Assembly: GCF_022008365.1 (NCBI RefSeq)
Contig: NZ_JAIRBA010000028.1
Coordinates: forward strand, 1-53,784
Direction: 5' to 3'
DNA: 53,784 bases
Source: Aequorivita vitellina
Lineage (GTDB): Bacteria; Bacteroidota; Bacteroidia; Flavobacteriales; Flavobacteriaceae
The position numbers were made by a program, and so were the translations under genes. Within the stretch, counting starts at the first letter, position 1; the number at the start of each line of letters is the position of its first letter. The notes under the pieces are model-generated. The model searched no databases, was not told the origin of the DNA, and saw nothing but the letters and a program-made list of their open reading frames with translations. Positions 34,880-47,776 of the stretch are shown piece by piece.

Positions 34880-36469
34880 TTACTGTTTCGTTATTTTTAA
34901 GGTTGCTTGTTTCCCGTCGGAAGTTTTTAAGGTTGCGAGATAGATTCCTGCTGCGTCGTTTATTTCAACGTCTAATTTTTGTGTGTTTTTATAAGTTGAA
35001 GTCGAAACTACCTGTCCGAGTATATTGATGATACTAACATTGGTTTCGGAAAAACGTTCCCCCAGATTTATAGTGAATCTACCGTTTGTAGGGTTTGGAT
35101 AGGCGCTTAAGGCCGGGCCAAAAGTGTTGGTTGCAACACCAAGAATGTTTGGCGTGGTTTTAAAAATCCAATAGTCATCCAGGCCTCTGCTATTTTCCGA
35201 TTTATCGCCAGACACATTTGAATCTGAAGAGCAAAACATTGCAAAATTACCATCTGCAGTTTGCAGGATATACGATCCGCCTTCATCGGCAGAGCCGCCA
35301 ATGGAATTTTGTGAAATAATATTTCCCGCGGTGTCGAGTTTTAAGAGCCAATAATCATAACCGCCGTTGGAGTCTTCTGTTTTATCTCCACTGGCATTGC
35401 TATTGCTCCAGCAAGCAACCATAAAGTTTCCGTCGGCAAGCTGTTTTACATCGCGTGGATAGTCAATGCCACTACCGCCAATTGTGTTTTGCCATACCAT
35501 ATTTCCGCTGCCATCCAATTTTAAAACCCAAGCGTCGTAATCGCCTTGGGAGTTTTCCGTTTTGTCTCCCGAAATATTTGATTTTGAATACCCGGCCACA
35601 AAGAAACTATCGTCTACAAGTTGAACCATATCTCGTAGCACGTCGCTGTCATTTCCGCCAAAGGTTCGATCCCATTCCACGTTTCCGCTGGCATCAAGTT
35701 TTACAATCCAATAATCATTCCCTCCGCGTGTGTTTTCTGTTTTGTCGCCCGAGTTTGGAGAGTTTGAAAAACCGCTAATTATATAGCCTCCCTCACTAGT
35801 TTGAAAGGCTGCTTGTGGTCTATCTACCAAATTGCCGCCAATACTATTTTGCCAGATAATGTTTCCCGAACTGTCAAGTTTAAGCGCCCAAAAATCGCGC
35901 TGTCCGTTAGAAGGGTCGGTTTTGTCGCCATTTATGTCGCTATCTGAATAGCCGCCAACAAAGTAGCCGCCGTCTGTGGTTTGAACAATGTAAGTGTCAA
36001 ACTCAGGTTGGTTTCCGCCGTATGTTTTTTGCCAAGTGATGTTTCCTGTAACATCGAGTTTTAAAATCCAATAATCCAAACCTCCTCGTGAATTTTCAGT
36101 TTTATCGCCCGAAATGTTGGAGTCTGAACCCGCGCCAAGTATGTATCCTCCGTCTGAGGTTTGTTGGAGAGAAATAAGATAATCATCACCGCTTCCGCCA
36201 ATGGTATTCTGCCATTGAATGTTTCCAGAATCGTCAATTTTTACAATCCAGATATCGATGGCTCCGTTGCTGTTTTCGGTTTTTTCGCCAGAAATATTAC
36301 TGGTGGAATAACCGCCAAGAATGTATCCGCCATCCGCTGTGGTTTCAAATACTGTTGAAAAGTCGGTATCGCTTCCACCAATGGTTTTTTGCCAGAGAAT
36401 AGCGGGGTCTTGAGCATAAACACTGAAGATACCCAATAATAATGCGAAAAGTGTAATTGAAGTTTTCAT
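34880..36469 (-). CDS. Secreted repeat protein with T9SS sorting domain
   Basis: A 529-residue exported protein (signal peptide 1-19, ending SVYAQ). Seven repeats of about 55-60 residues follow. Each has WQ.TIGG...D, then T.DGGYIL.G.SDSN.SGDKTEN, then DYWI.KLD..GNI; this is the pattern of WD-like or SBBP-like beta-propeller blades. The C terminus (about 455-529) is a type A T9SS sorting domain: LSAYPNPTNGRFTINLGE, then INILGQVV, and the final GIYLATLKTSDGKQATLKITKQ. It should thus cross the outer membrane by T9SS, with the tail removed. The promoter region has no TAnnTTTG but a weak GATGACT-N15-CGAT match to the candidate ECF motif. Confidence 0.88.
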   Translation of the reverse strand: MKTSITLFALLLGIFSVYAQDPAILWQKTIGGSDTDFSTVFETTADGGYILGGYSTSNISGEKTENSNGAIDIWIVKIDDSGNIQWQNTIGGSGDDYLISLQQTSDGGYILGAGSDSNISGDKTENSRGGLDYWILKLDVTGNITWQKTYGGNQPEFDTYIVQTTDGGYFVGGYSDSDINGDKTDPSNGQRDFWALKLDSSGNIIWQNSIGGNLVDRPQAAFQTSEGGYIISGFSNSPNSGDKTENTRGGNDYWIVKLDASGNVEWDRTFGGNDSDVLRDMVQLVDDSFFVAGYSKSNISGDKTENSQGDYDAWVLKLDGSGNMVWQNTIGGSGIDYPRDVKQLADGNFMVACWSNSNASGDKTEDSNGGYDYWLLKLDTAGNIISQNSIGGSADEGGSYILQTADGNFAMFCSSDSNVSGDKSENSRGLDDYWIFKTTPNILGVATNTFGPALSAYPNPTNGRFTINLGERFSETNVSIINILGQVVSTSTYKNTQKLDVEINDAAGIYLATLKTSDGKQATLKITKQ

Positions 36470-36499: not shown

Positions 36500-36525
36500 A
36501 TCGAAATGGCAATGGAATAGTCATC
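36500..36525 (-). promoter_or_regulatory. Candidate ECF promoter, site D (weak)
   Basis: The minus strand reads GATGACT (36525-36519), 15 nt, then CGAT (36503-36500). It differs by one base in each box and by one in spacing from sites A-C. The T9SS gene starts 31 nt beyond it, at 36469. Confidence 0.3.
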
Positions 36526-36669
36526 AATTTTTTAAATAAAAGAGGAAAGAAAATAGAATAAAGTGGAAATACAATTGTACATCTTTGATATGGATTTGAT
36601 ATTTTTTAATGAGATTGATAATTATCAATCATGAATTCTTTCCAAGTTCGATTATTTATAAAGTCACCC

Positions 36670-36756
36670 TTATTTGGCCCATTCGAAAACAGTGTCTTGA
36701 GAATAGGAAGTATGTATTCCTGCCAGTAATAAGAAAAAAATTATTAAATGTTTCAT
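36670..36756 (-). pseudogene. Truncated secretory gene remnant
   Basis: ATG at 36756 opens a 28-residue frame: a complete Sec signal peptide (MKHLIIFFLLLAGIHTSYSQ) followed by DTVFEWAK and a stop at 36670. The last residues look like the start of a propeller protein (compare AQDPAILWQK in the neighbour). The rest of the gene is gone. It keeps its upstream region, including site C, and so looks like a decayed third member of the T9SS repeat-protein group. Confidence 0.55.
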
Positions 36757-36833
36757 AACTATTAATTTTTAACCATTTTGAATGAATTTGATTCGCCTTC
36801 CGAAGGCTAATTTTGGTGAGTTTCTATTCTTTT

Positions 36834-36858
36834 AACGGAGCTATTAAAAAAGGTCATC
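36834..36858 (-). promoter_or_regulatory. Candidate ECF promoter, site C
   Basis: The minus strand reads GATGACC (36858-36852), TTTT and 10 more bases (14 in total), then CGTT (36837-36834). It lies 78 nt upstream of the remnant's ATG. Confidence 0.45.
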
Positions 36859-37047
36859 ATTTTTTTAGAGAAAAGAGAAAAGAGAAAAGTGTGAAAATGA
36901 TTGCGAACCCTTTAAAATGTAGTTAAAAGGAGAACATTTCGCGGATGAGGTTGGATTGGGAGTTTTTAAAATGACTGATACCGAATTATAATACTGAAGT
37001 TTTTACAATCCGGTATTCAACATTATTTTTACGCTAAAGAAAGATTC

Positions 37048-38097
37048 TTAATCTTTTATGAACTTGATCGAATTTCCATTTTCAAGTTTTAAGAAGTATA
37101 AACCGTTAGAAAAATTTTCAAGATGGATTTTTTCGGTTTCAGAGATTTTTCCATTACTTATTTCAGTACCCAAAACATTATAAATTTTATAATTTTCTGA
37201 TTCTTTTAAACCGGAAATTTGGATAAAACTGTCAGCTGGATTTGGATAAACTACAATTAAATTTCTATTGAATTCATTTATACTTAAAGTAGGAATTTCA
37301 ATTTTAGAAATCTTGTTCCCAAGAAATTCAGAAATAAATAATTCGTTTCCGTATATTGCTAATCCATACGGAGAAGAAAGTCCAGCAACAACATCTGTCG
37401 CGGTTGGATTGGTTACGTTTATGTCAATTTGGGATATTTTGTTGCCGTCCAATTCAGCGATATACATAATGTTTCCGTGCAGAACCATTTGATAGGCATC
37501 GCTAAGACCATTCACGACATCTATTGCTGTTGGGGTGGTATCGGTTATATCAATTTTTGAAATTTTATTTACAGCCTGTTCACTAATGTATAAGTCATTT
37601 CCACGCAATATTATATCAAGCGGCCTATGAAGTCCTGAAATAACATCTATAGCTACTGGGTTTGAAGCAGTTATATCTATTTTTGAAATCTTATTGGCAT
37701 TAGATTCGGCTATGTATAAAATATTTCCATCTAAGGCTAGACCACTAGGCTCATTAAGACCCGCAACAACCTCAGTGGCCACTGGATTGGTGTCGGTTAT
37801 ATCTATTTTAGAAATTTTTCCGGCAGCATATTCGGCAATATATAAGTCATTTCCATTTAAGATGAATTCGGAAGGATTCCCCAGGCCAGTGATAACTTCT
37901 AACGGCACTGGACTGCTATCGGTTACGTTTATTTTTAAAATTTTTTCGGCATTATCACAAAAGTACAAGTCGTTTCCATTAAAGTTTAAACCAGATGGAA
38001 AACTTAGGCCAGTGACTACATCTGTAGTTTGGGCATTTGTTATGTTCACATTTATAACTAAAACAGTGAGCGCAAATAGAAAGTTAAATTTTTTCAT
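37048..38097 (-). CDS. Secreted six-bladed propeller-like protein with T9SS sorting domain
   Basis: A 349-residue exported protein (signal peptide 1-22, ending NITNAQ). Six repeats of about 43 residues follow, of the form V..GL..P.G..L.GN.LYIAE...NKISKIDIT..NP.A..VV, an NHL or SMP-30-like blade pattern giving a probable six-bladed propeller. The last about 75 residues form a type A T9SS sorting domain: IVVYPNPADSFIQISGL, YKIYNVLG, then NFSNGLYFLKLENGNSIKFIKD. No enzyme motif is present; ligand or surface binding is likely. No TAnnTTTG precedes it; candidate ECF site B lies 72 nt upstream. Confidence 0.87.
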   Translation of the reverse strand: MKKFNFLFALTVLVINVNITNAQTTDVVTGLSFPSGLNFNGNDLYFCDNAEKILKINVTDSSPVPLEVITGLGNPSEFILNGNDLYIAEYAAGKISKIDITDTNPVATEVVAGLNEPSGLALDGNILYIAESNANKISKIDITASNPVAIDVISGLHRPLDIILRGNDLYISEQAVNKISKIDITDTTPTAIDVVNGLSDAYQMVLHGNIMYIAELDGNKISQIDINVTNPTATDVVAGLSSPYGLAIYGNELFISEFLGNKISKIEIPTLSINEFNRNLIVVYPNPADSFIQISGLKESENYKIYNVLGTEISNGKISETEKIHLENFSNGLYFLKLENGNSIKFIKD

Positions 38098-38168
38098 GAT
38101 AGTTAGTTTAAATTAATATTCATTTCATAAAAGCTATGGAATGCAAAATGCAAGCAGTTTAATTTTAA

Positions 38169-38193
38169 AACGTTGAATATTGAAAAGGTCATC
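38169..38193 (-). promoter_or_regulatory. Candidate ECF promoter, site B
   Basis: The minus strand reads GATGACC (38193-38187), 14 nt beginning TTTT, then CGTT (38172-38169) followed by TTAAAA. It stands 72 nt before the propeller gene's ATG. Confidence 0.5.
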
Positions 38194-38234
38194 AAAAAAG
38201 GACCTAAGGCTTGAGGCTGCTTTGCTGAAACCTA

Positions 38235-38250
38235 CCTGTCCGTAAGCAGG
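38235..38250. repeat. Short inverted repeat downstream of CHAT gene 1
   Basis: CCTGTCCGTAAGCAGG has CCTG/CAGG arms. It resembles the CCTGC...GCAGG elements scattered between flavobacterial genes (recalled, not searched). It may act as a weak terminator for the CHAT gene. Confidence 0.3.
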
Positions 38251-38304
38251 GACGCGAGACCAAAAATAGGAGGACTACTGATAAGTTATAGGAAAAAAAT
38301 TGGG

Positions 38305-41300
38305 TTATGCTTTGCTGGATTTCTTCCTTATTAGCAGAAAAATAATAAGGATTCCGATCGCTAACAATCCGAAAACCCACCACCAAATAGGATTGAAACC
38401 GTGTTGCAATTGAATGGGAGCGGTTTTGCCAATTAAGACCATGCCTGCCCAATATTGAGGCGATACGGTGCGACCTTTAGCAGTGGCAATGTAGTTGAGC
38501 TTTGCTTGTCTTAAGGCTTCATCTTTTGTCATTCCTACGGCGAGATTGTCGTAAAAATTTTGGATGATTTTTACACTGCTTTCTTCATCAATTTGCCAAA
38601 GACTGGTCAAGATGCTTTCGCTGCCCGCATAGTTGAAAGCGTGTGCCAAAGAAATCATTCCCTCACCGGGCTGGTATGTAGGTTTTCCTGTTTCGCAAGC
38701 CGTTAAAATGGCGAGATTTGAACTTAGATTGGTGTTGTAAATCTCGAAGGTGTACAGTGAATTTTCGTCGTAATCTTCATTACGTGAATTTTTCTTCGCA
38801 AAAATAAGGCGCGAAAATTCAGGACTTACGTTGTTACTTTCTGCGTGTGTGCCAATGTGAATTATTTTGTGTTCGCCTGCATTGGCTTCAAAAATCTGCT
38901 TGGTTGAATTTTCATTTAAAAACGATATTCCATCAAAAATTTTAGAGTAATTCTCGGCCAATTCTACACTGCTTGGTTGCGATAGTAAAGTAAGGTATGC
39001 AACGTCACTAGTAACCGAATCTGTAATGGCTATTCTGTATTCGCTTTTCATTTTTTTTGTAAAGCCAGGGGCAAAGGCAACAAAATTTTCAGCAAACATT
39101 TTGGGCTTTTTGTCTTCGTTTAAAAGCAAAAGACTAAAGTTGTACGAAATGGAATGCTTCGCCAGTAAACTATTGGTAACGAGTTCTTTATAGCTTTTTA
39201 TTTTTGAAGGCGTTAAGGTTTCAAAACTTAAATTGAAGAGCGCGCCATCAGGAATAATAATTACTTTTTTGTTATTTATACGGCTGCTCAAAGGTTCCCA
39301 CAATTGCTGATAAAGCTCATAAAGTAGGGTGGATTCATCTTCCAAAGTTACCTTCGGATCGCTTAATTTTTTAATATGATTTTTTACAGAATCGAACTTT
39401 AATGGAAGAATACTTCGGTTTTTGTTATCCAAAACAATTCCGTACAAATTGTTATCGATAAACAAATAGCGAATTACTGTAGTGTTGGCGGGAATATATT
39501 TTTGTAAATCTTTAAGTGAAGCATCCAAAGTGGCATACTTCATTTTGTAATATTTAGGAAAAGCTGTTTTTAAAGAATCTAAAAACGAATTATAAATAGT
39601 ACTCGCCTCCAGATAATTTTGAAAAGAAGAAGTTGAATCTTCACTTAAAGCGCTGCGGTTAACGGCTTCTTTTTTTAACTCGCTTTCCCTTTTAATAACT
39701 GCTTGCGGAACGTCTGCAAAATTGATTTCATCTTGAAGCATCAACTTAGAACGAATGGTGTAATAGACGCTGTTTTCGTGGGTTTCAATAAGTTTGGTGA
39801 GATATATTTTGTTTTCGGTTTGGGTATATAAATCGTAATAAAGTTGTTTTGTGAAACCGTAAAGTCCCAAAAAATTTGAATACAGTACATTCACATTATC
39901 ATCTTTTGAAATTAGAGCTTTCTGTTTCCCAAGAATTTTGAAGGCATCATCCATATTTTTCAAAAGACTTTTTAGAAAAATTGAGTCTTTGGAAGTATTC
40001 TGTGCGTAATATGCTTTCGATTTCGCTAAAATCAACAAAGGTTTTCGATAGGTCAATTTTAATGCATCGAGTGTTGTGCTTTTATTTTGAGTGTGGGCAT
40101 CAATAAAATCTATTCCTTTTTCGCTCCATTCGGCAGCTTTTGAGTAATCGCCAATAGTGTAAAACACTTCCGAAAGATTTAGCATATGAGCGATGAGGTC
40201 GCTGTTGTTTTCGCCTCCGTTCTTTTTTAAATAATGAAAGGCATTTAAGGAAGTGGTTACTGCGGCTTCACTTTTTCCGTTTTTCGCCAAAAACAAACTT
40301 TTATTCTGGGCAAAATTTAAGTAGGTATCGTCTAGGTTTTCTCCGAGGGCGCTTTTGTATAATTTTTCGGCATCGTTGTATGATTTTTCCGCCTTTTCAA
40401 TTTCGCCTTTTAGACCGTAACAACTTGCAAGATTAGCAGTGGCAATTGCCCGCCAATAGACATCTGGACTGGAATCGGCTTCGTACATGGCGAGTACTTT
40501 TTCGAAGGAATTTATTGCGCTGTCTGTTTCTTTTAAAGCCATTTGTGATTGGGCTAACAATATAAGCGCACGCGGAATTTCGGGGTCGCCCGGGAGGTAT
40601 AATTGATCACGATTATTGTAAATGTACGCCATAAGCTTATAAGCCCTATTTACGTGGCCAATGTTAGTATAAAGCGAGCCGAGGTTTGAAATGCCGGTCC
40701 ATTTTAGACGCTTGCTGCGCGAAACAACGCGAACGTCTTTTGATTTTTTTAAAACAAAATTGCAATCTTGAATGAGCCTTTCAAGCGTATGTATAGATTC
40801 AGAAATATTGCCGCGAGCCTCCATTACTAGTGCCATATTCAATTTTATGCCCGAAGAGGAATACACTTTATAAACCGAATCGCCCTGTATTTTTTGTAAA
40901 GTTTTTATAGCGTTTTCAAAGAAGTATTGCGCGCTGTCCAGTTTTTGGGACCGCCACATCATAATCCCGAAAAAATTGTTGACGTCAGCTATCTTTTTAT
41001 AATTCTTTGTCTCCGAATTTTTTAATTCAGCAAGTGCTTTTTTAGCCTGTTCGTTGGCATCCAAAAATTTTCCGGAAATGTAATAGGAATAAGTTAACGC
41101 ATAGTATGCTTCGCCAATTTCGTTGTGCGTAGCATCGGGGACAGCACGTATTATATTTAGTGATTCTTCAGCAGCTTTGAAAGATTCGGTAATGTTTCCC
41201 AATTCCTCATAAAGTTGAGAAAGCCCGTACAGAGCTGTATGTTGGGCGCGTTTGGAGGCTCCCTGTGTTTTTAGATTTTTAAAAAATACATCGGCTTTTT

Positions 41301-41568
41301 TGGCCGCATCTTTTGGGTTGCTTTTTAAGAGCGCAACCTTTCCCACATATACTGTGTATTGCGCTAACGAATCTATTTGATTGGCTTGTGTAAAACTTAT
41401 TATTTGTGTTTGAAGTGCAGCATCTGCCTCTTTTATTTGATTGTTCAATAAATAGGAGTCTATTAATTTAGTGCCGGATAAATCCGTGTCTTGCCCGAAG
41501 CTATTTTGGAAGAAAACTAAAAAAGCAATCAGGAGTAAAAGTGAAAGATTGTTGTATTTAGATACCAT
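38305..41568 (-). CDS. TPR-CHAT caspase-like peptidase 1, periplasmic, C-terminally anchored
   Basis: A 1087-residue protein with a Sec signal peptide (1-25, ending NSFGQ), a long tetratricopeptide solenoid (about 30-560), a linker helix bundle, and a C-terminal CHAT domain (about 745-1050). The catalytic dyad is His908 in HIGTHAESNN and Cys958 in ILTACETGKP. GEGMISLAHAFNYAGSESILTSLW and SPQYWAGMVLIG complete the family signature. One membrane helix (about 1062-1079) ends in RKKSSKA. Signal and basic tail place the TPR and CHAT parts in the periplasm. It is the third gene of an operon behind an ECF sigma factor and a membrane TPR protein. CHAT domains are caspase-relatives that cleave partner proteins; the substrate here is unknown. 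Confidence 0.88.
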   Translation of the reverse strand: MVSKYNNLSLLLLIAFLVFFQNSFGQDTDLSGTKLIDSYLLNNQIKEADAALQTQIISFTQANQIDSLAQYTVYVGKVALLKSNPKDAAKKADVFFKNLKTQGASKRAQHTALYGLSQLYEELGNITESFKAAEESLNIIRAVPDATHNEIGEAYYALTYSYYISGKFLDANEQAKKALAELKNSETKNYKKIADVNNFFGIMMWRSQKLDSAQYFFENAIKTLQKIQGDSVYKVYSSSGIKLNMALVMEARGNISESIHTLERLIQDCNFVLKKSKDVRVVSRSKRLKWTGISNLGSLYTNIGHVNRAYKLMAYIYNNRDQLYLPGDPEIPRALILLAQSQMALKETDSAINSFEKVLAMYEADSSPDVYWRAIATANLASCYGLKGEIEKAEKSYNDAEKLYKSALGENLDDTYLNFAQNKSLFLAKNGKSEAAVTTSLNAFHYLKKNGGENNSDLIAHMLNLSEVFYTIGDYSKAAEWSEKGIDFIDAHTQNKSTTLDALKLTYRKPLLILAKSKAYYAQNTSKDSIFLKSLLKNMDDAFKILGKQKALISKDDNVNVLYSNFLGLYGFTKQLYYDLYTQTENKIYLTKLIETHENSVYYTIRSKLMLQDEINFADVPQAVIKRESELKKEAVNRSALSEDSTSSFQNYLEASTIYNSFLDSLKTAFPKYYKMKYATLDASLKDLQKYIPANTTVIRYLFIDNNLYGIVLDNKNRSILPLKFDSVKNHIKKLSDPKVTLEDESTLLYELYQQLWEPLSSRINNKKVIIIPDGALFNLSFETLTPSKIKSYKELVTNSLLAKHSISYNFSLLLLNEDKKPKMFAENFVAFAPGFTKKMKSEYRIAITDSVTSDVAYLTLLSQPSSVELAENYSKIFDGISFLNENSTKQIFEANAGEHKIIHIGTHAESNNVSPEFSRLIFAKKNSRNEDYDENSLYTFEIYNTNLSSNLAILTACETGKPTYQPGEGMISLAHAFNYAGSESILTSLWQIDEESSVKIIQNFYDNLAVGMTKDEALRQAKLNYIATAKGRTVSPQYWAGMVLIGKTAPIQLQHGFNPIWWWVFGLLAIGILIIFLLIRKKSSKA

Positions 41569-41652
41569 ACAATTTTATTTATTGACACTGGAAAAAACGC
41601 CCAATTGGTATTCAGTTTGATGCAATCTTTAGTTTTTAAAACTGTATCCGTT

Positions 41653-42402
41653 TTATTCGCTCAGCGCTTTAAGTAATTCGTTATTCTTTTCAGAAGGGTA
41701 CTCTTTCAACAATTGTTTAGCTTCTTCAATTTGTCCTAACTTTATTTTTGCCAAAGCCGTGTAATGGGCTGCATCTTCTTTAAAAATACCTTCGCTGAAT
41801 TTACTTGCAGGTTCTAAATATTTTAATGATTTTTCAGCATTTCCTTCGGCTAAATGGGCAACTCCCAAAAAGTAATTTAAGGTGTCGTTATTTGCTTTTT
41901 CGGGGAGTAGTTTTTGCCACCAATCAATAGCTTCTTTGTATTCTTTGCGTTTATAAACTACCATTCCTTCGTAAAAATCATAGTCGCTTGTTATGCCCAT
42001 CACTGTTCGTAAACCTGGGTCTGCTTCAAAATGAGTTGCAAATATTTTTTCTGGAGAATTGGAATTTTGCATCATCCAAAAAATTCCTAATAACACTACC
42101 AATACCGCAGCAATGGAATACCAAATAACTTTTTTGTTCGCTTTGTTGGTAGAAAGTTTTTTTACTTTTAAATCATTTTCATCCACTGAAATGTGTTCGT
42201 GAAATTCTTTTATTTTCGATTGACGAATACTGTCTTCAATTTCTATTCTTACTTGTTTTACGTGTGCTATTTTTTCGGAAAGGTTTGCGATTTGGTTAAG
42301 TTTTTCATCTGCCAACAGCGCTTCTTCTGAAAAATCATTTTGATCCAGATAGGTTTCTATTATGTCCCATTCTAACGAGCTTATTTCAATTGGGGAATTC
42401 AT
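41653..42402 (-). CDS. Single-pass TPR protein, likely anti-sigma factor
   Basis: A 249-residue protein with a cytosolic N-terminal part (1-90, helical, charged; SLEWDIIETYLDQNDFSEEAL...), one membrane helix (92-111) and a periplasmic C-terminal part with about three TPR units (MVVYKRKEYKEAIDWWQKLLP, NYFLGVAHLAEGNAEKSLKYLEPASKF, YTALAKIKLGQIEEAKQLLKE). It has no zinc motif of ZAS-type anti-sigma factors, but its topology and position, 23 nt after an ECF sigma gene, are those of an anti-sigma factor. Its periplasmic TPR part is in the same compartment as the CHAT peptidase encoded next, which makes it a plausible substrate or partner. That is inference. Confidence 0.7.
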   Translation of the reverse strand: MNSPIEISSLEWDIIETYLDQNDFSEEALLADEKLNQIANLSEKIAHVKQVRIEIEDSIRQSKIKEFHEHISVDENDLKVKKLSTNKANKKVIWYSIAAVLVVLLGIFWMMQNSNSPEKIFATHFEADPGLRTVMGITSDYDFYEGMVVYKRKEYKEAIDWWQKLLPEKANNDTLNYFLGVAHLAEGNAEKSLKYLEPASKFSEGIFKEDAAHYTALAKIKLGQIEEAKQLLKEYPSEKNNELLKALSE

Positions 42403-42425
42403 TTTATAATTTTACTTTTTAAGTA

Positions 42426-42995
42426 CTAGTTTTTACCAAGTGCCAATTCTTTTAATTTTTGAATGCACCTGTATTTTTTGTTTTTCGCCGATGCTTCTTC
42501 AATATTTAGCTTTTCAGCAATAGTACGCAAAGACATTTTGTTGAAATAAAACTGCGTGAGCAAATCTTTGCATCCTTGACCAAGGTTTTCGAAAGCGGCT
42601 AATGTTATAGTTAATTGTTTGTCTTTTTTTTCAAGTTCACCTGTTGGATTGTCATCTGCTGCTAGTTGATACATTTTGTCGTTTATTGAAGTTGTTTTCC
42701 GTTTAGTCGCAGCTCTAGTTTGGTCTATCCATTTATTTCTGGCAATTGTAAATAGGTATGCTTCTATTTCATTTTTGTTTTTTGGCTGAAATTTTCGCGA
42801 ACTCAGTTTTTTCCAACAAACAAAATAAGCTTCCTGAAAAACATCTTTGGCATTATCTACAGTGCCTCCATTTTTAAGAATGTAATATTTTGTTTTCGGA
42901 TATTCGGCAATGTAAAATTCACGTATTGGCACCTCCTCATTGTTTAAGAAAGCATCCAATAATTTAAATTTTCCTTGAGTTAGTGTATCTTCCAT
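42426..42995 (-). CDS. ECF-type RNA polymerase sigma factor
   Basis: A 189-residue sigma-70 family factor with only regions 2 and 4. Region 2: NAKDVFQEAYFVCWKKLSS...IEAYLFTIARNKWIDQTR (about 48-95), which holds the -10 recognition and core-binding helices. Region 4: LGQGCKDLLTQFYFNKMSLRTIAEKLNIEEASAKNKKYRCIQKLKEL (about 138-185), the helix-turn-helix for the -35 element. It is the first gene of the sigma/TPR/CHAT operon. Upstream are a weak TATATTTC and, 116 nt before the ATG, candidate ECF site A, as expected for autoregulation. Confidence 0.9.
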   Translation of the reverse strand: MEDTLTQGKFKLLDAFLNNEEVPIREFYIAEYPKTKYYILKNGGTVDNAKDVFQEAYFVCWKKLSSRKFQPKNKNEIEAYLFTIARNKWIDQTRAATKRKTTSINDKMYQLAADDNPTGELEKKDKQLTITLAAFENLGQGCKDLLTQFYFNKMSLRTIAEKLNIEEASAKNKKYRCIQKLKELALGKN

Positions 42996-43110
42996 AGAAA
43001 TCTATGGAAATATACAATTTTTTTACCTTAGTTTTTCAATTTGAATTCGGTTCCATTTCTTATATCAATTTAAGTGAAAGAACAAAATTCCGTTTGCCTT
43101 TTAATACTTT

Positions 43111-43135
43111 AACGTTTATAATATAAAAGGTCATC
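43111..43135 (-). promoter_or_regulatory. Candidate ECF promoter, site A, before the sigma gene
   Basis: The minus strand reads GATGACC (43135-43129), 14 nt beginning TTTT, then CGTT (43114-43111) followed by AAAG. It has the same boxes and exact spacing as sites B and C. Confidence 0.5.
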
Positions 43136-43283: not shown

Positions 43284-43406
43284 CTATTGTTTTATAATCC
43301 TTAAAATTTTAGATTCTTCTACAGCAGAATTATAGAAACATCGAAACGTTTTTAAATTGTCATCGCAAAAATCAAAAAGAAGTTTATTTTTGTAATCTAT
43401 TCCCAT
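43284..43406 (-). CDS. Possible 40-residue ORF ahead of a terminator
   Basis: ATG at 43406 (MGIDYKNKLLFDF...) runs 40 residues to a stop at 43284, and a strong terminator follows 37 nt later. It is antisense to the mvaD leader. Longer in-frame starts would lie antisense to mvaD codons. No family is recognised. It may be the tail of a lost gene whose terminator remains. Confidence 0.25.
   Translation of the reverse strand: MGIDYKNKLLFDFCDDNLKTFRCFYNSAVEESKILRIIKQ
43385..43392 (+). promoter_or_regulatory. mvaD -7 element
   Basis: TATTTTTG, a perfect TAnnTTTG, lies 17 nt before the ATG at 43410. Confidence 0.5.
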
Positions 43407-44515: not shown

Positions 44516-47500
44516 TCACTTTTTGGTACGCTGTATTTCTTTTTTTCTTTGTACAATTAACGTCATTAAAATAAAACCAACAACACCCGCCAAAACATAC
44601 CACCACCAAGCAACACCAGCCTTTAATGCCATTGGAGCGGTGTCGCCAATAAGTATTAAGCCTGCCCAATATTGGGGCGATGTAGTTCTCCCTTCGGCGG
44701 CAGCCAAATAACTTATTTTCGCTTTGCGCAACGCTTCATCTTTGGGCATTTCTTTTGCGAGATTATCGTAAAATAGCTTCACAATTTGGGCGCTAGACTC
44801 TTCGTCAATTTCCCAAAGGCTGGTTAAAATACTCTCACTACCAGCATAGTTAAAAGCGTGTGCTAAAGAAATCATTCCTTCGCCAGCTTGGTAAGTGGGT
44901 TTTCCCGTTTCGCAAGCCGTTAAAATTGCGAGATTGGAGGAGAGGTCTATGTTGTATATTTCGTAGGAATAGAGCGAGTTTTCGTCATAGGTTTTTGTGT
45001 CATTCGTCTTTTTCGCAAAAATGAGTCGGCTCAATTCTGGGCTTATATTGTTGCTTTCGGCGTGGGTACCAATGTGTATTATTTTGTGTTCTTTGGCGCG
45101 GTTTATAAACACTTCTTTGCTTGCGTCTTCATTTACAAAATAGTTACCATCAAAAACTTTTGAGTATTGTTTCACCAAATCTTCGCTAAACGGCTGCGGT
45201 AAAAGCGTGAGATAGGCTTTATCTAAATTCACAGAATCTTTTATGGCAAGCTTGTATTCCTGCTTCATTTTTTCATTAAAACCAGGGGCAAAGGCAATAA
45301 AATCTGAAGAATAATCGGCTATATTTTTTTTGTCTTTATAAAGTAGCAGACTAAAATTATACGAGATTTCATAATTAGCTAATAAGCTATTGGTCGCCAT
45401 TTCGTTAAAACTTTTTATAGGTTTTGGGGTGAGGGTTTCAAAGCTAAGATTGAAAAGCTCCCTATCTGGAATGATTACCACTTTTTTAGTCGAAATATAC
45501 TTTTCTAACGGAGACCAAAGCGATTGATATAATTGATAGAGCACCAAACTCATTTTTTCTGCTGAAAATTCCGCGTGGTTTAAATTAGAAATATGGTCTT
45601 TTACCGAGCTGTAATTGAGAGAAATCATCCGCTTTTCTTTAGACGAAACAACAAAAACATATAATTGGTCTTCAATAAAAATATAACGAATAACCGTTGT
45701 GTTTAAAGGAATTTTTTGTTGAAGTCCGTGCATGGGTTCTTCCAAAGTTGCATAGCGCATTTTGTAGTATTTCGGAAAATTTTGTTTTAATGAATCTAGG
45801 TAATAATCCCAGTTTTCCGAAGCTTTAAAATAAGTAGCCAGATTGCCGTCAATGGTGTTATTAAGCGAAGAAACCATCTGGCTTTTTAGGTTGTTTTCTC
45901 GTTCTACAACTTCTTCAGGAATATGTTGAAAAGCTATATTATCGCGCAGGTTTAATCGCGAGCGAATACGATTATAAATGCTGGATTCGTGAAGTGCAAT
46001 GAGTTTATCTAAATATTCAGGATTATTAGTATTTTGATAAAGTTCTAACCTAATTTTTTCGGCAAAATTTAGGAGCTCTTCATTTTCTGCAAGTAGTAAA
46101 GTTACGTCTTCGTGTTTGTTTACTACTTTTTTACGTTGATTTAAAATAGCGATACCTTCATCTATTTGCAACAAAAGTTCTTTTAAAAGTTGTGTGTTTT
46201 TATCTTCGGCCAAGTAGTATTTAGAAGCTGCATTAATGAGTAAAGCTTGCGGTTTTCGGTATTGGCTTAAAATGGAATCTGAAATACTTATTTTTTCATT
46301 TTCTTTTAAAATATTAAAACGGAGGGCTTCATCACTAAACTTTTTTGCTTCGGCATAATCTTGCAGCAAATAATGAACCTGCGCTAAATTTATTGTGTGA
46401 TAAAACGCCTGTAGTGTATTTTTAAACTCTCCTGTATGTGTAAAATTATAGGTTTCATTGGCAAGCAAAATTGCTTTTTCGCGCATGTTATTTTTTGCGG
46501 CAAATAGAGAATACTCCAAGATATTATCCATAAAATCCTTGGTGTAGGTTGTTCCAATTGATGTGCGATACATGGTTCGAGCCTTTTCATAAAAAATTGC
46601 GGCATTTTCAACATCGTTCATATAATCGTAAATGGTGGCGCGAGTAGAAAGGGCAGCAGCACCCCAGTAAAGATTGGCGCCAGGGCTGGTTTTTAAAAGT
46701 TCTAATGCTCTGTCTGCATTTAGTGCGGCTCCCTCAAAATCGCGACTTGCAGTTTTGGCTTCGGCTAGAATTATGTTCGAAATAATAATATTAATATCGT
46801 TTTCTTCAAATAATTCTTTTTTCTGTTCAAATGAATATTCTATTAATTCTTGGGTGCGAGAATGCTCGCCAAGCGTATTGTAAAAAGTTGCCATATTGTC
46901 AATGGCCATGCATTGATGGCTTTTGGCTTTAAAAGTGCGAGCTTCATCGGTAGAGCGGTTAATATAGTTTTGAAACCCAGCGATGGACTCTTCGGAAATA
47001 TTAATGGCTTGTCGGTTTTTTCCCAAGGCATTCCACAATACGGCGAGGTTCATTTTTACGAGTGCCGGTCGATAATAGCGGTTCATAATATCGCTCTCGT
47101 TTGTTTTTTCGAGCACTTTTACTGCTTCTTGAAAATAGTATTTGGCACTGTCTAATTTAGTTTCTTGCCACATCATTCCGCCAAGGGCATTGTAAACCTG
47201 ATTGTAGAAAACATAATCTTGTTGCCCCGTTTTTTTTAAGAGTTGCAGCGCTTTTTGATACTGATTAGTGGCTAAAGGAAAATTACCCATTTTAGAAGCA
47301 TAAAAGCCCAATCTGTATTCTACGCTTGCTAAGTCTAGGTTGTTTGGCTCGGTATTGCGAAGCGCAAATGGTCTCGCGGTTTCCATTAAATTGTAGGCTT
47401 TTTGATGCAGGCCGGCATCGTCATAAATCCAACCTAGCTCTGTCGTGGCTTCAACAACGTAGTGTGGATTGGCGTTTTTTTTAATTTCTTCCAATAGGTT

Positions 47501-47776
47501 TTCGGCCTTCTGTACTGCCAATTTTGTGTTGCCATTATTAAGCTTAAAACTGCCTTCAAATTGAATGTAATTGTAAATGCTGTCGTAGATTTTTTCGGCT
47601 CGGTAATACGCAATATTCTTAGCAACCGCTGCACGAGCTTTTTCAAGAGAATCTTGTTCAATAAGTGTTTGTATTTCTTTGACCGTTAAATTTTTTTCTT
47701 GCGAATAGCCTTCAAAAGATAGAAGGAGAGAAAATACTTGAAAAATAAAGAGGAATCTCATGGTTTTAAAAGCCAT
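44516..47776 (-). CDS. TPR-CHAT caspase-like peptidase 2, periplasmic, C-terminally anchored
   Basis: A 1086-residue paralogue of the CHAT protein at 38.3 kb, with the same order: signal peptide (1-25, ending EGYSQ), TPR solenoid, CHAT domain, one membrane helix (about 1057-1074) and a basic tail (QRKKEIQRTKK). The dyad is His905 in HIGTHAESNN and Cys955 in ILTACETGKP. The CHAT domain is very similar to that of paralogue 1 (for example GEGMISLAHAFNYAGSESILTSLW is identical), while the TPR region has diverged, as expected if the TPRs choose different partners. It has no sigma factor of its own; a TATCTTTC near 47826 on the minus strand suggests a housekeeping promoter. MRFLFIFQ at 47761 is an alternative start. 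Confidence 0.87.
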   Translation of the reverse strand: MAFKTMRFLFIFQVFSLLLSFEGYSQEKNLTVKEIQTLIEQDSLEKARAAVAKNIAYYRAEKIYDSIYNYIQFEGSFKLNNGNTKLAVQKAENLLEEIKKNANPHYVVEATTELGWIYDDAGLHQKAYNLMETARPFALRNTEPNNLDLASVEYRLGFYASKMGNFPLATNQYQKALQLLKKTGQQDYVFYNQVYNALGGMMWQETKLDSAKYYFQEAVKVLEKTNESDIMNRYYRPALVKMNLAVLWNALGKNRQAINISEESIAGFQNYINRSTDEARTFKAKSHQCMAIDNMATFYNTLGEHSRTQELIEYSFEQKKELFEENDINIIISNIILAEAKTASRDFEGAALNADRALELLKTSPGANLYWGAAALSTRATIYDYMNDVENAAIFYEKARTMYRTSIGTTYTKDFMDNILEYSLFAAKNNMREKAILLANETYNFTHTGEFKNTLQAFYHTINLAQVHYLLQDYAEAKKFSDEALRFNILKENEKISISDSILSQYRKPQALLINAASKYYLAEDKNTQLLKELLLQIDEGIAILNQRKKVVNKHEDVTLLLAENEELLNFAEKIRLELYQNTNNPEYLDKLIALHESSIYNRIRSRLNLRDNIAFQHIPEEVVERENNLKSQMVSSLNNTIDGNLATYFKASENWDYYLDSLKQNFPKYYKMRYATLEEPMHGLQQKIPLNTTVIRYIFIEDQLYVFVVSSKEKRMISLNYSSVKDHISNLNHAEFSAEKMSLVLYQLYQSLWSPLEKYISTKKVVIIPDRELFNLSFETLTPKPIKSFNEMATNSLLANYEISYNFSLLLYKDKKNIADYSSDFIAFAPGFNEKMKQEYKLAIKDSVNLDKAYLTLLPQPFSEDLVKQYSKVFDGNYFVNEDASKEVFINRAKEHKIIHIGTHAESNNISPELSRLIFAKKTNDTKTYDENSLYSYEIYNIDLSSNLAILTACETGKPTYQAGEGMISLAHAFNYAGSESILTSLWEIDEESSAQIVKLFYDNLAKEMPKDEALRKAKISYLAAAEGRTTSPQYWAGLILIGDTAPMALKAGVAWWWYVLAGVVGFILMTLIVQRKKEIQRTKK

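Follow-up and report, generated by a model that had tools for sequence, protein, structure and literature searches.

Which regulator reads a two-box motif that recurs in front of a sigma factor gene and nearby genes for secreted proteins in the flavobacterium Aequorivita vitellina? The motif, GATGACC followed at a fixed distance by CGTT, lies in the window analysed here, a stretch of 53,784 nt (contig NZ_JAIRBA010000028.1), and one of its copies precedes the gene of an extracytoplasmic function (ECF) sigma factor that we call sigma-A. We infer that the sites are very probably promoters of sigma-A, with GATGAC as the -35 element, CGTT as the -10 element 15 nt away, and the run of T that follows GATGAC belonging to the spacer. 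This reading draws on what the sequences themselves display: the sites, their conservation, their near-constant spacing, the agreement of site class with sigma clade, and the kind of site that two genes carry in one related genome, G250. An ECF regulon is ordinary in kind; the co-variation of sigma factor and promoter and the presence of a TPR-CHAT partner are unusual.

Three minus-strand sites (Table 1), each with exactly 14 bases between GATGACC and CGTT, lie where the preliminary description of this DNA had placed them. Dinucleotide shuffles of the window (100 replicates) give an expectation of 0.02 matches to GATGACC-N13..15-CGTT against the 3 observed, and 3 or more were reached in 0/100 shuffles. 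The extended form GATGACCTTTT-N10-CGTT has three copies, all inside 6.3 kb, and no other copy in the 3.63-Mb assembly. Over the whole assembly GATGACC-N13..15-CGTT has 6 matches against 3 in a reversed control, with TTTT found only in the window's three, and allowing up to 3 mismatches yields no excess across the genome, with 143 matches where the reversed control has 266. Because this excess is lacking and the TTTT form occurs only at three sites, the sigma-A type sites are a small local set and not a large regulon of their own.

The product of the sigma-A gene, P0001, exceeds the cut-off of the curated ECF model. It is small and built of regions 2 and 4 only: an alignment of the family profile covers SigW residues 9-183, and the profile, used as a query, matches the solved ECF sigmas SigL, RpoE/SigE and SigW; Pfam alone reports only region 2 in P0001. 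Ten orthologous loci were compared: eight from the genus, one from Gelidibacter japonicus and one from the metagenome-assembled genome (MAG) UBA5544. All ten sigma-A genes have GATGACCTT-N12 followed by CGTT (8) or CATT (2) upstream, 94-141 nt before the called start codon. The copy before the sigma gene is thus conserved where conservation had been called for, and we propose it as an autoregulated promoter; the autoregulation suggested earlier appears likely. Past the CHAT gene, some 5 kb along, a second copy of the motif is present at four of six named orthologous loci (L034, L035, L036 and L039; not L037 or L038). The looser pattern GATGACNTT-N12-CGWT, run on three further genomes, gives 3 CGTT and 3 CGAT matches in Gelidibacter (2 in the reversed control), 2 CGTT and 5 CGAT in UBA5544 (2 in the control), and 4 CGAT and 0 CGTT in MAG HKST-UBA79, whose sigma is only 40% identical (0 in the control).

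Sites of the form GATGAC-N16-CGAT make up a sister class, and a paralogous sigma factor, sigma-B, goes with them. Sigma-B is 32-40% identical to sigma-A and occurs in 22 of 28 genomes of the genus; in the genome studied here it lies on another contig, C129. GATGAC-N16-CGAT precedes 20 of the 21 sigma-B genes tested in exact form and the remaining one as GATGAT, and was also seen at the 22nd (G274). The fourth, weaker site of the preliminary description exists, but it does not belong with the other three: we dropped the idea of a degraded CGTT copy, its sequence being GATGAC-N16-CGAT, the form found before sigma-B. It would be a promoter of the sigma-B class, and the P0005 orthologue in G274 has an N16 CGAT site at the same 56-nt distance. 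Matches to N16-CGAT in the A. vitellina genome number eight against 5 in the reversed control; the four whose contexts were inspected precede sigma-B, P0005, a gene for an M23 peptidase with a type IX secretion system (T9SS) sorting tail and a gene for a secreted-looking 472-aa protein. Sigma-B would control itself, the secreted M23 peptidase and other surface proteins. The N15-CGAT form is probably ancestral, with CGTT and N16 derived.

Sites within 400 nt upstream of the sigma gene were found at 10/10 sigma-A, 21/21 sigma-B (one as GATGAT) and 13/33 other genes of the clade, against 0/11 outgroup ECF genes. Of the 46 matches before clade sigma genes, 43 have a spacing of 15 or 16 from GATGAC to CG[AT]T: 15 in the 10 matches at sigma-A loci and 13 others, 16 in 20 others; the rest are single matches at 10, 10 and 23. 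The gap had earlier seemed a few bases short beside that of E. coli sigma E; with GATGAC as the -35 core it is not oddly short. Conserved boxes and spacing, together with the match of site and sigma clade, support the -35/-10 interpretation offered at the outset.

The association was followed through 28 genomes of the genus and 249 genomes of the family, from 235 genera. In the genus, GATGACCTT-N12-CGTT has 20 matches against 6 in the reversed control; 18 fall in six of the eight genomes with sigma-A and 2 in two of the 20 genomes without it (p = 0.002). In the two remaining genomes with sigma-A, G263 and G270, the site reads CATT. Four of the 20 matches have no fitting gene: no open reading frame (ORF) longer than 50 aa lies within 420 nt of G249:638872 or G250:3050611, the G273 match is inside a gene, and the G268 match has only a 62-aa frame. 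None of the 248 other sampled family genomes contains the exact CGTT motif, the A. vitellina genome alone matching among the 249, and in this sample the CGTT form is restricted to the lineage of sigma-A. The motif is therefore not spread at random density, a possibility that the preliminary description had raised against itself. The CGAT class reaches further. GATGACNTT-N12/13-CGATNTA has 57 matches in 21 of the 28 genus genomes against 1 reversed-control match, and a match is present in 19/22 genomes with sigma-B against 2/6 without (p = 0.02). Across the family, 33 genomes together contain 55 matches to the strict CGAT motif, against 13 in the control, and 49 of the 55 have spacing 15. Members of the sigma clade, defined by E below 1e-45, occur in 33 family genomes; the motif is found in 26 of these and in 7/216 genomes without the clade (p = 1e-22). 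With the genus itself set aside, 24 genomes share motif and sigma, and 7 and 7 have one of them (p = 4e-21).

Sites followed by an ORF of at least 100 aa starting within 200 nt were scanned, which left out 8/20 CGTT and 9/55 CGAT matches; the 58 proteins so obtained comprise a few orthologous families repeated across genomes. In raw counts, T9SS sorting tails occur in 30 of them, matches to sigma region 2 in 12 and the FHA-trypsin type in 7. T9SS tails end all five scanned CGTT targets from G264, G260, G249 (two) and G274, and likewise P0004 and the M23 protein of G250. The absence of the housekeeping element TAnnTTTG, first remarked on for the genes of this locus, holds in general: within 150 nt it precedes 2/44 site-bearing genes longer than 250 aa against 48/166 control genes (p = 0.0003), and 0/14 shorter site-bearing genes, 13 of them sigma genes.

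Two gene families differ in site class between genomes. For the M23 peptidase with a T9SS tail, 24 of the 28 genus genomes have a single close orthologue each, and in every one of them a site stands 57-69 nt ahead of the called start (in G254, ahead of the start of the match): CGAT in 23, CGTT in G250 alone. A second M23 homologue of the A. vitellina genome, 36% identical, is without a site. A lipoprotein-like gene present in nine of the 28 genomes has a site in 9/9, CGAT in eight (one as GATGAT) and CGTT only in G250, where the protein has no Pfam match. G250 possesses sigma-A and no second sigma match at E <= 1e-15, that is, no detected sigma-B. The finding that two target promoters of this genome have the variant matching the retained sigma suggests a rewiring of the regulon.

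The sigma tree (75 rows) places the CGTT/CATT sigmas in one clade (support 100/99) and the N16-CGAT sigmas in another (100/100); the 13 N15-CGAT sigmas and the 20 site-less clade members are scattered. Nearly every clade member (63 or 64 of 64) has the region 4 residues N172, K174, Y175, R176 and C177. Residues specific to sigma-A, defined as kept in at least 9/10 sigma-A and in at most 2/34 CGAT sigmas, number 21, of which 20 lie within residues 10-98, that is, in region 2 and the stretch before it (regions assigned by alignment with SigW). A shared -35 and a changed -10 would predict such a combination of a nearly invariant region 4 helix and changed residues 10-98; since it reflects one evolutionary event, the pattern is a consistency check and no proof. 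We claim no specificity residue: the region 2 differences stem from one clade, and some are common to site-less sigmas.

Several observations weigh against the assignment of these sites to the sigma factors. Of the 33 wider-family sigma genes, 20 have no site within 400 nt; the strict CGAT motif is missing from 7/33 genomes with the sigma clade and present in 7 without it. Co-occurrence at the level of the genus is modest for both sigmas. Five of the 31 family sites inspected, at 28 loci, are inside other genes, three of them in genomes without the sigma (G069, G080 and G125). Each of the two sigma clades stands for a single evolutionary event and the same orthologues recur among the targets, which means that the counts are not independent. 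In G263 and G270, where sigma-B was not detected, CATT stands at sigma-A and N15-CGAT at the M23 gene; the code linking sigma and promoter is not one to one in these two genomes.

This mixture of CATT and CGAT with sigma-A alone would suit a reading in which one promiscuous sigma, or both sigmas alike, recognises all CGTT and CGAT sites and the variants are drift. The -35 element and the region 4 helix are shared between the classes, and N15 and N16 CGAT sites co-occur in the same genomes. We consider such promiscuity unlikely, in view of CGTT at both G250 genes and of the five genomes with both sigmas (G000, G264, G260, G249 and G274), in each of which the sigma-A site is CGTT and the M23 site CGAT. 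Less probable still is the operator alternative of the preliminary description, in which the motif would be bound by some other regulatory protein working alongside the housekeeping sigma and would move together with the sigma cassette. Sigma-A genes also have a conserved TTGTATATTTC-like stretch immediately ahead of the ATG, which could be a housekeeping promoter; against the operator, the CGTT and N16-CGAT classes each track one sigma clade, two different boxes stand 15 or 16 nt apart with no dyad symmetry by eye, the housekeeping box is rare before target genes, and the start codon was never less than 49 nt from the start of the site in 58 measured cases, as expected of a -35 element. Chance similarity in AT-rich intergenic DNA, with which the missing excess at 3 mismatches would agree, we reject as next to impossible, given the surplus over shuffles and the conservation of the motif at 10/10 orthologous loci.

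If the sites are sigma-A promoters, sigma-A would transcribe its own operon (sigma factor, membrane TPR protein and TPR-CHAT protein) plus a few adjacent genes for secreted proteins. The order on the minus strand is P0001 (ECF sigma), P0002 (membrane TPR), P0003 (TPR-CHAT), P0004 (NHL propeller), a truncated frame and P0005 (repeat protein). A relative of the TPR protein with a transmembrane (TM) segment lies directly downstream of the sigma gene at 10/10 sigma-A, 21/21 sigma-B, 33/33 other clade and 9/11 outgroup ECF loci. A CHAT gene comes next at 10/10 sigma-A and 31/33 other clade loci and at 0/21 sigma-B and 0/11 outgroup loci. The sequence compared at many of these loci ends ~1.5-2 kb downstream; a CHAT gene is also missing from 12 sigma-B loci that span 11-20 kb. 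The predicted structure of P0002 (mean pLDDT 74.7, pTM 0.51) consists of N-terminal helices (9-71), a linker, a TM-like helix (90-112) and TPR helices; the protein is a candidate anti-sigma of sigma-A. P0003 has a CHAT domain (Pfam CHAT, 6.7e-43) in which His904 (HIGTH) and Cys958 (TACETG) are invariant in 10/10 aligned proteins; we take the two to be the catalytic pair of CHAT/caspase-like proteases. The CHAT protein may cleave the membrane TPR anti-sigma and so release the sigma factor, a step proposed because the TPR-CHAT protease of Craspase cleaves the inhibitor of an ECF sigma (PMC10028731). Neither Cas7-11/gRAMP nor another CRISPR effector was noticed among the ORFs near the cassette, with no dedicated CRISPR search made.

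Table 1. Sites and genes of the sigma-A locus, in window coordinates.
Feature	Position	Strand	Remarks
Sigma-A type site GATGACCTTTT-N10-CGTT	43111..43135	(-)	140 nt before sigma-A ATG; kept in 10/10 orthologous loci (8 CGTT, 2 CATT)
Sigma-A type site	38169..38193	(-)	96 nt before ATG of NHL-propeller gene with T9SS tail
Sigma-A type site	36834..36858	(-)	before truncated signal-peptide frame; downstream flank like that of sites before intact T9SS genes in two relatives
CGAT-type site GATGAC-N16-CGAT, GATGACTATTCCATTGCCATTTCGAT	36500..36525	(-)	56 nt before ATG of P0005 repeat gene
CGAT-type site GATGAC-N15-CGAT	43340..43364	(-)	369 nt before sigma-A ATG; 229 nt upstream of sigma-A site
ECF sigma factor gene, sigma-A, P0001, 189 aa	42426..42995	(-)	TIGR02937 74.1 bits (cut-off 42.9); Pfam Sigma70_r2
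Membrane protein P0002, candidate anti-sigma	41653..42402	(-)	N-terminal helices, TM-like segment, C-terminal TPR; domain scan, predicted structure
TPR-CHAT protein P0003, 1087 aa	38305..41568	(-)	signal peptide and C-terminal TM segment by eye; His904, Cys958 invariant in 10 aligned
NHL-repeat propeller P0004 with T9SS sorting tail	37048..38097	(-)	proposed sigma-A target
Truncated reading frame, 28 codons, signal-peptide-like	36670..36756	(-)	behind third site; read by eye
Repeat protein P0005, 529 aa, with T9SS tail	34880..36469	(-)	proposed CGAT-class (sigma-B) target

Other features accompany these elements. The CGAT-type site upstream of the sigma-A site, absent from the preliminary description, has counterparts in a minority of sigma-A loci, 3/10 in all (369, 380 and 407 nt before the start), and possibly reflects cross-regulation of the sigma-A gene. 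The start codon of sigma-A falls within a 9-bp inverted repeat, TTCCATAGA-TT-TCTATGGAA (window 42990-43009). This repeat is retained in G264, and similar arms of 7 bp occur in the A. todarodis, A. xiaoshiensis and A. sinensis orthologues; a scripted search found no such arms in the other five sigma-A orthologues. The repeat could be a start-codon hairpin or an operator. Behind the third site (window 36670-36858, minus strand) the flank CGTTAAAAGAATAGAAACT is common to sites before intact T9SS genes in L080 and L081, and the site's own frame is cut short. A 1086-aa reading frame (window 44516-47776, minus strand) overlaps a neighbouring plus-strand gene; five of the sigma-A relatives compared have at its place a second CHAT protein, 40-43% identical to P0003. 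Elsewhere, FHA proteins of 556 aa with a trypsin-like domain and no obvious signal peptide lie 103-107 nt behind CGAT sites in seven genomes (loci L238, L152, L242, L243, L246, L247 and L165), with spacing 15 in six and 16 in one. CGAT-type sites also stand ~220 nt before a 926-927 aa gene in two genomes (L248:120 in G269 and L245:150 in G262), which is presumably an aconitase gene. At L167 in G153, a genome with no clade sigma detected, a CGAT-type site is found 245 nt ahead of a start that falls within a frame resembling the C-terminal part of a CHAT protein.

SigW-type promoters have a -10 element starting with CG at a spacing near 16, and the usual ECF -35 element has an AAC-type core; the -35 element here is GATGAC instead. 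SigW/SigE-type systems resemble the present one in the ECF protein match and in having sites of two boxes ahead of the sigma gene and of genes close by; they differ in the neighbours of the sigma gene, here a TPR membrane protein and a TPR-CHAT protein. Within Flavobacteriaceae, the SM6 promoters of Flavobacterium psychrophilum have a CGT box in the -10 region that is ascribed to an ECF sigma and linked to T9SS (PMC9723704). As that paper describes them, SM6 genes include T9SS machinery (GldN, PorU), whereas many targets here look like T9SS cargo; the likeness is one of description. The PorX/PorY-SigP system of Porphyromonas gingivalis also ties an ECF sigma to T9SS; SigP is described as part of a cascade that includes a two-component system and as acting on genes for T9SS components, and the text consulted mentions no CHAT protein (PMC4800418, PMC8265659). 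In Craspase/CASP-sigma, as far as described, a single locus encodes the TPR-CHAT protease, the inhibitor of the sigma and the ECF sigma itself, which has predicted sites within that locus (PMC10028731); unlike there, the CHAT protein here has, by eye, a signal peptide and a TM anchor, and the candidate inhibitor is a membrane protein. A limited literature search found nothing on the motif or on an ECF/TPR/CHAT cassette in Bacteroidetes; the ECF group name of the clade and its promoter may already be in print.

A wider proposal, which we offer tentatively and regard as somewhat doubtful, is a family-wide envelope cassette of Flavobacteriaceae. A periplasm-facing TPR-CHAT protease would cut the membrane TPR anti-sigma and free the ECF sigma, as a CRISPR-free counterpart of the Craspase switch, and the cassette would control T9SS surface cargo through GATGAC-N15/16-CGWT, with a -10 element that co-evolved with the duplicated sigmas. 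The sites described here provide testable promoters and small regulons for two Flavobacteriaceae ECF sigmas. That a TPR-CHAT gene shares a conserved cluster with an ECF sigma gene, and that no CRISPR effector was noticed there, opens the idea that TPR-CHAT proteases act generally in sigma release to direct test.

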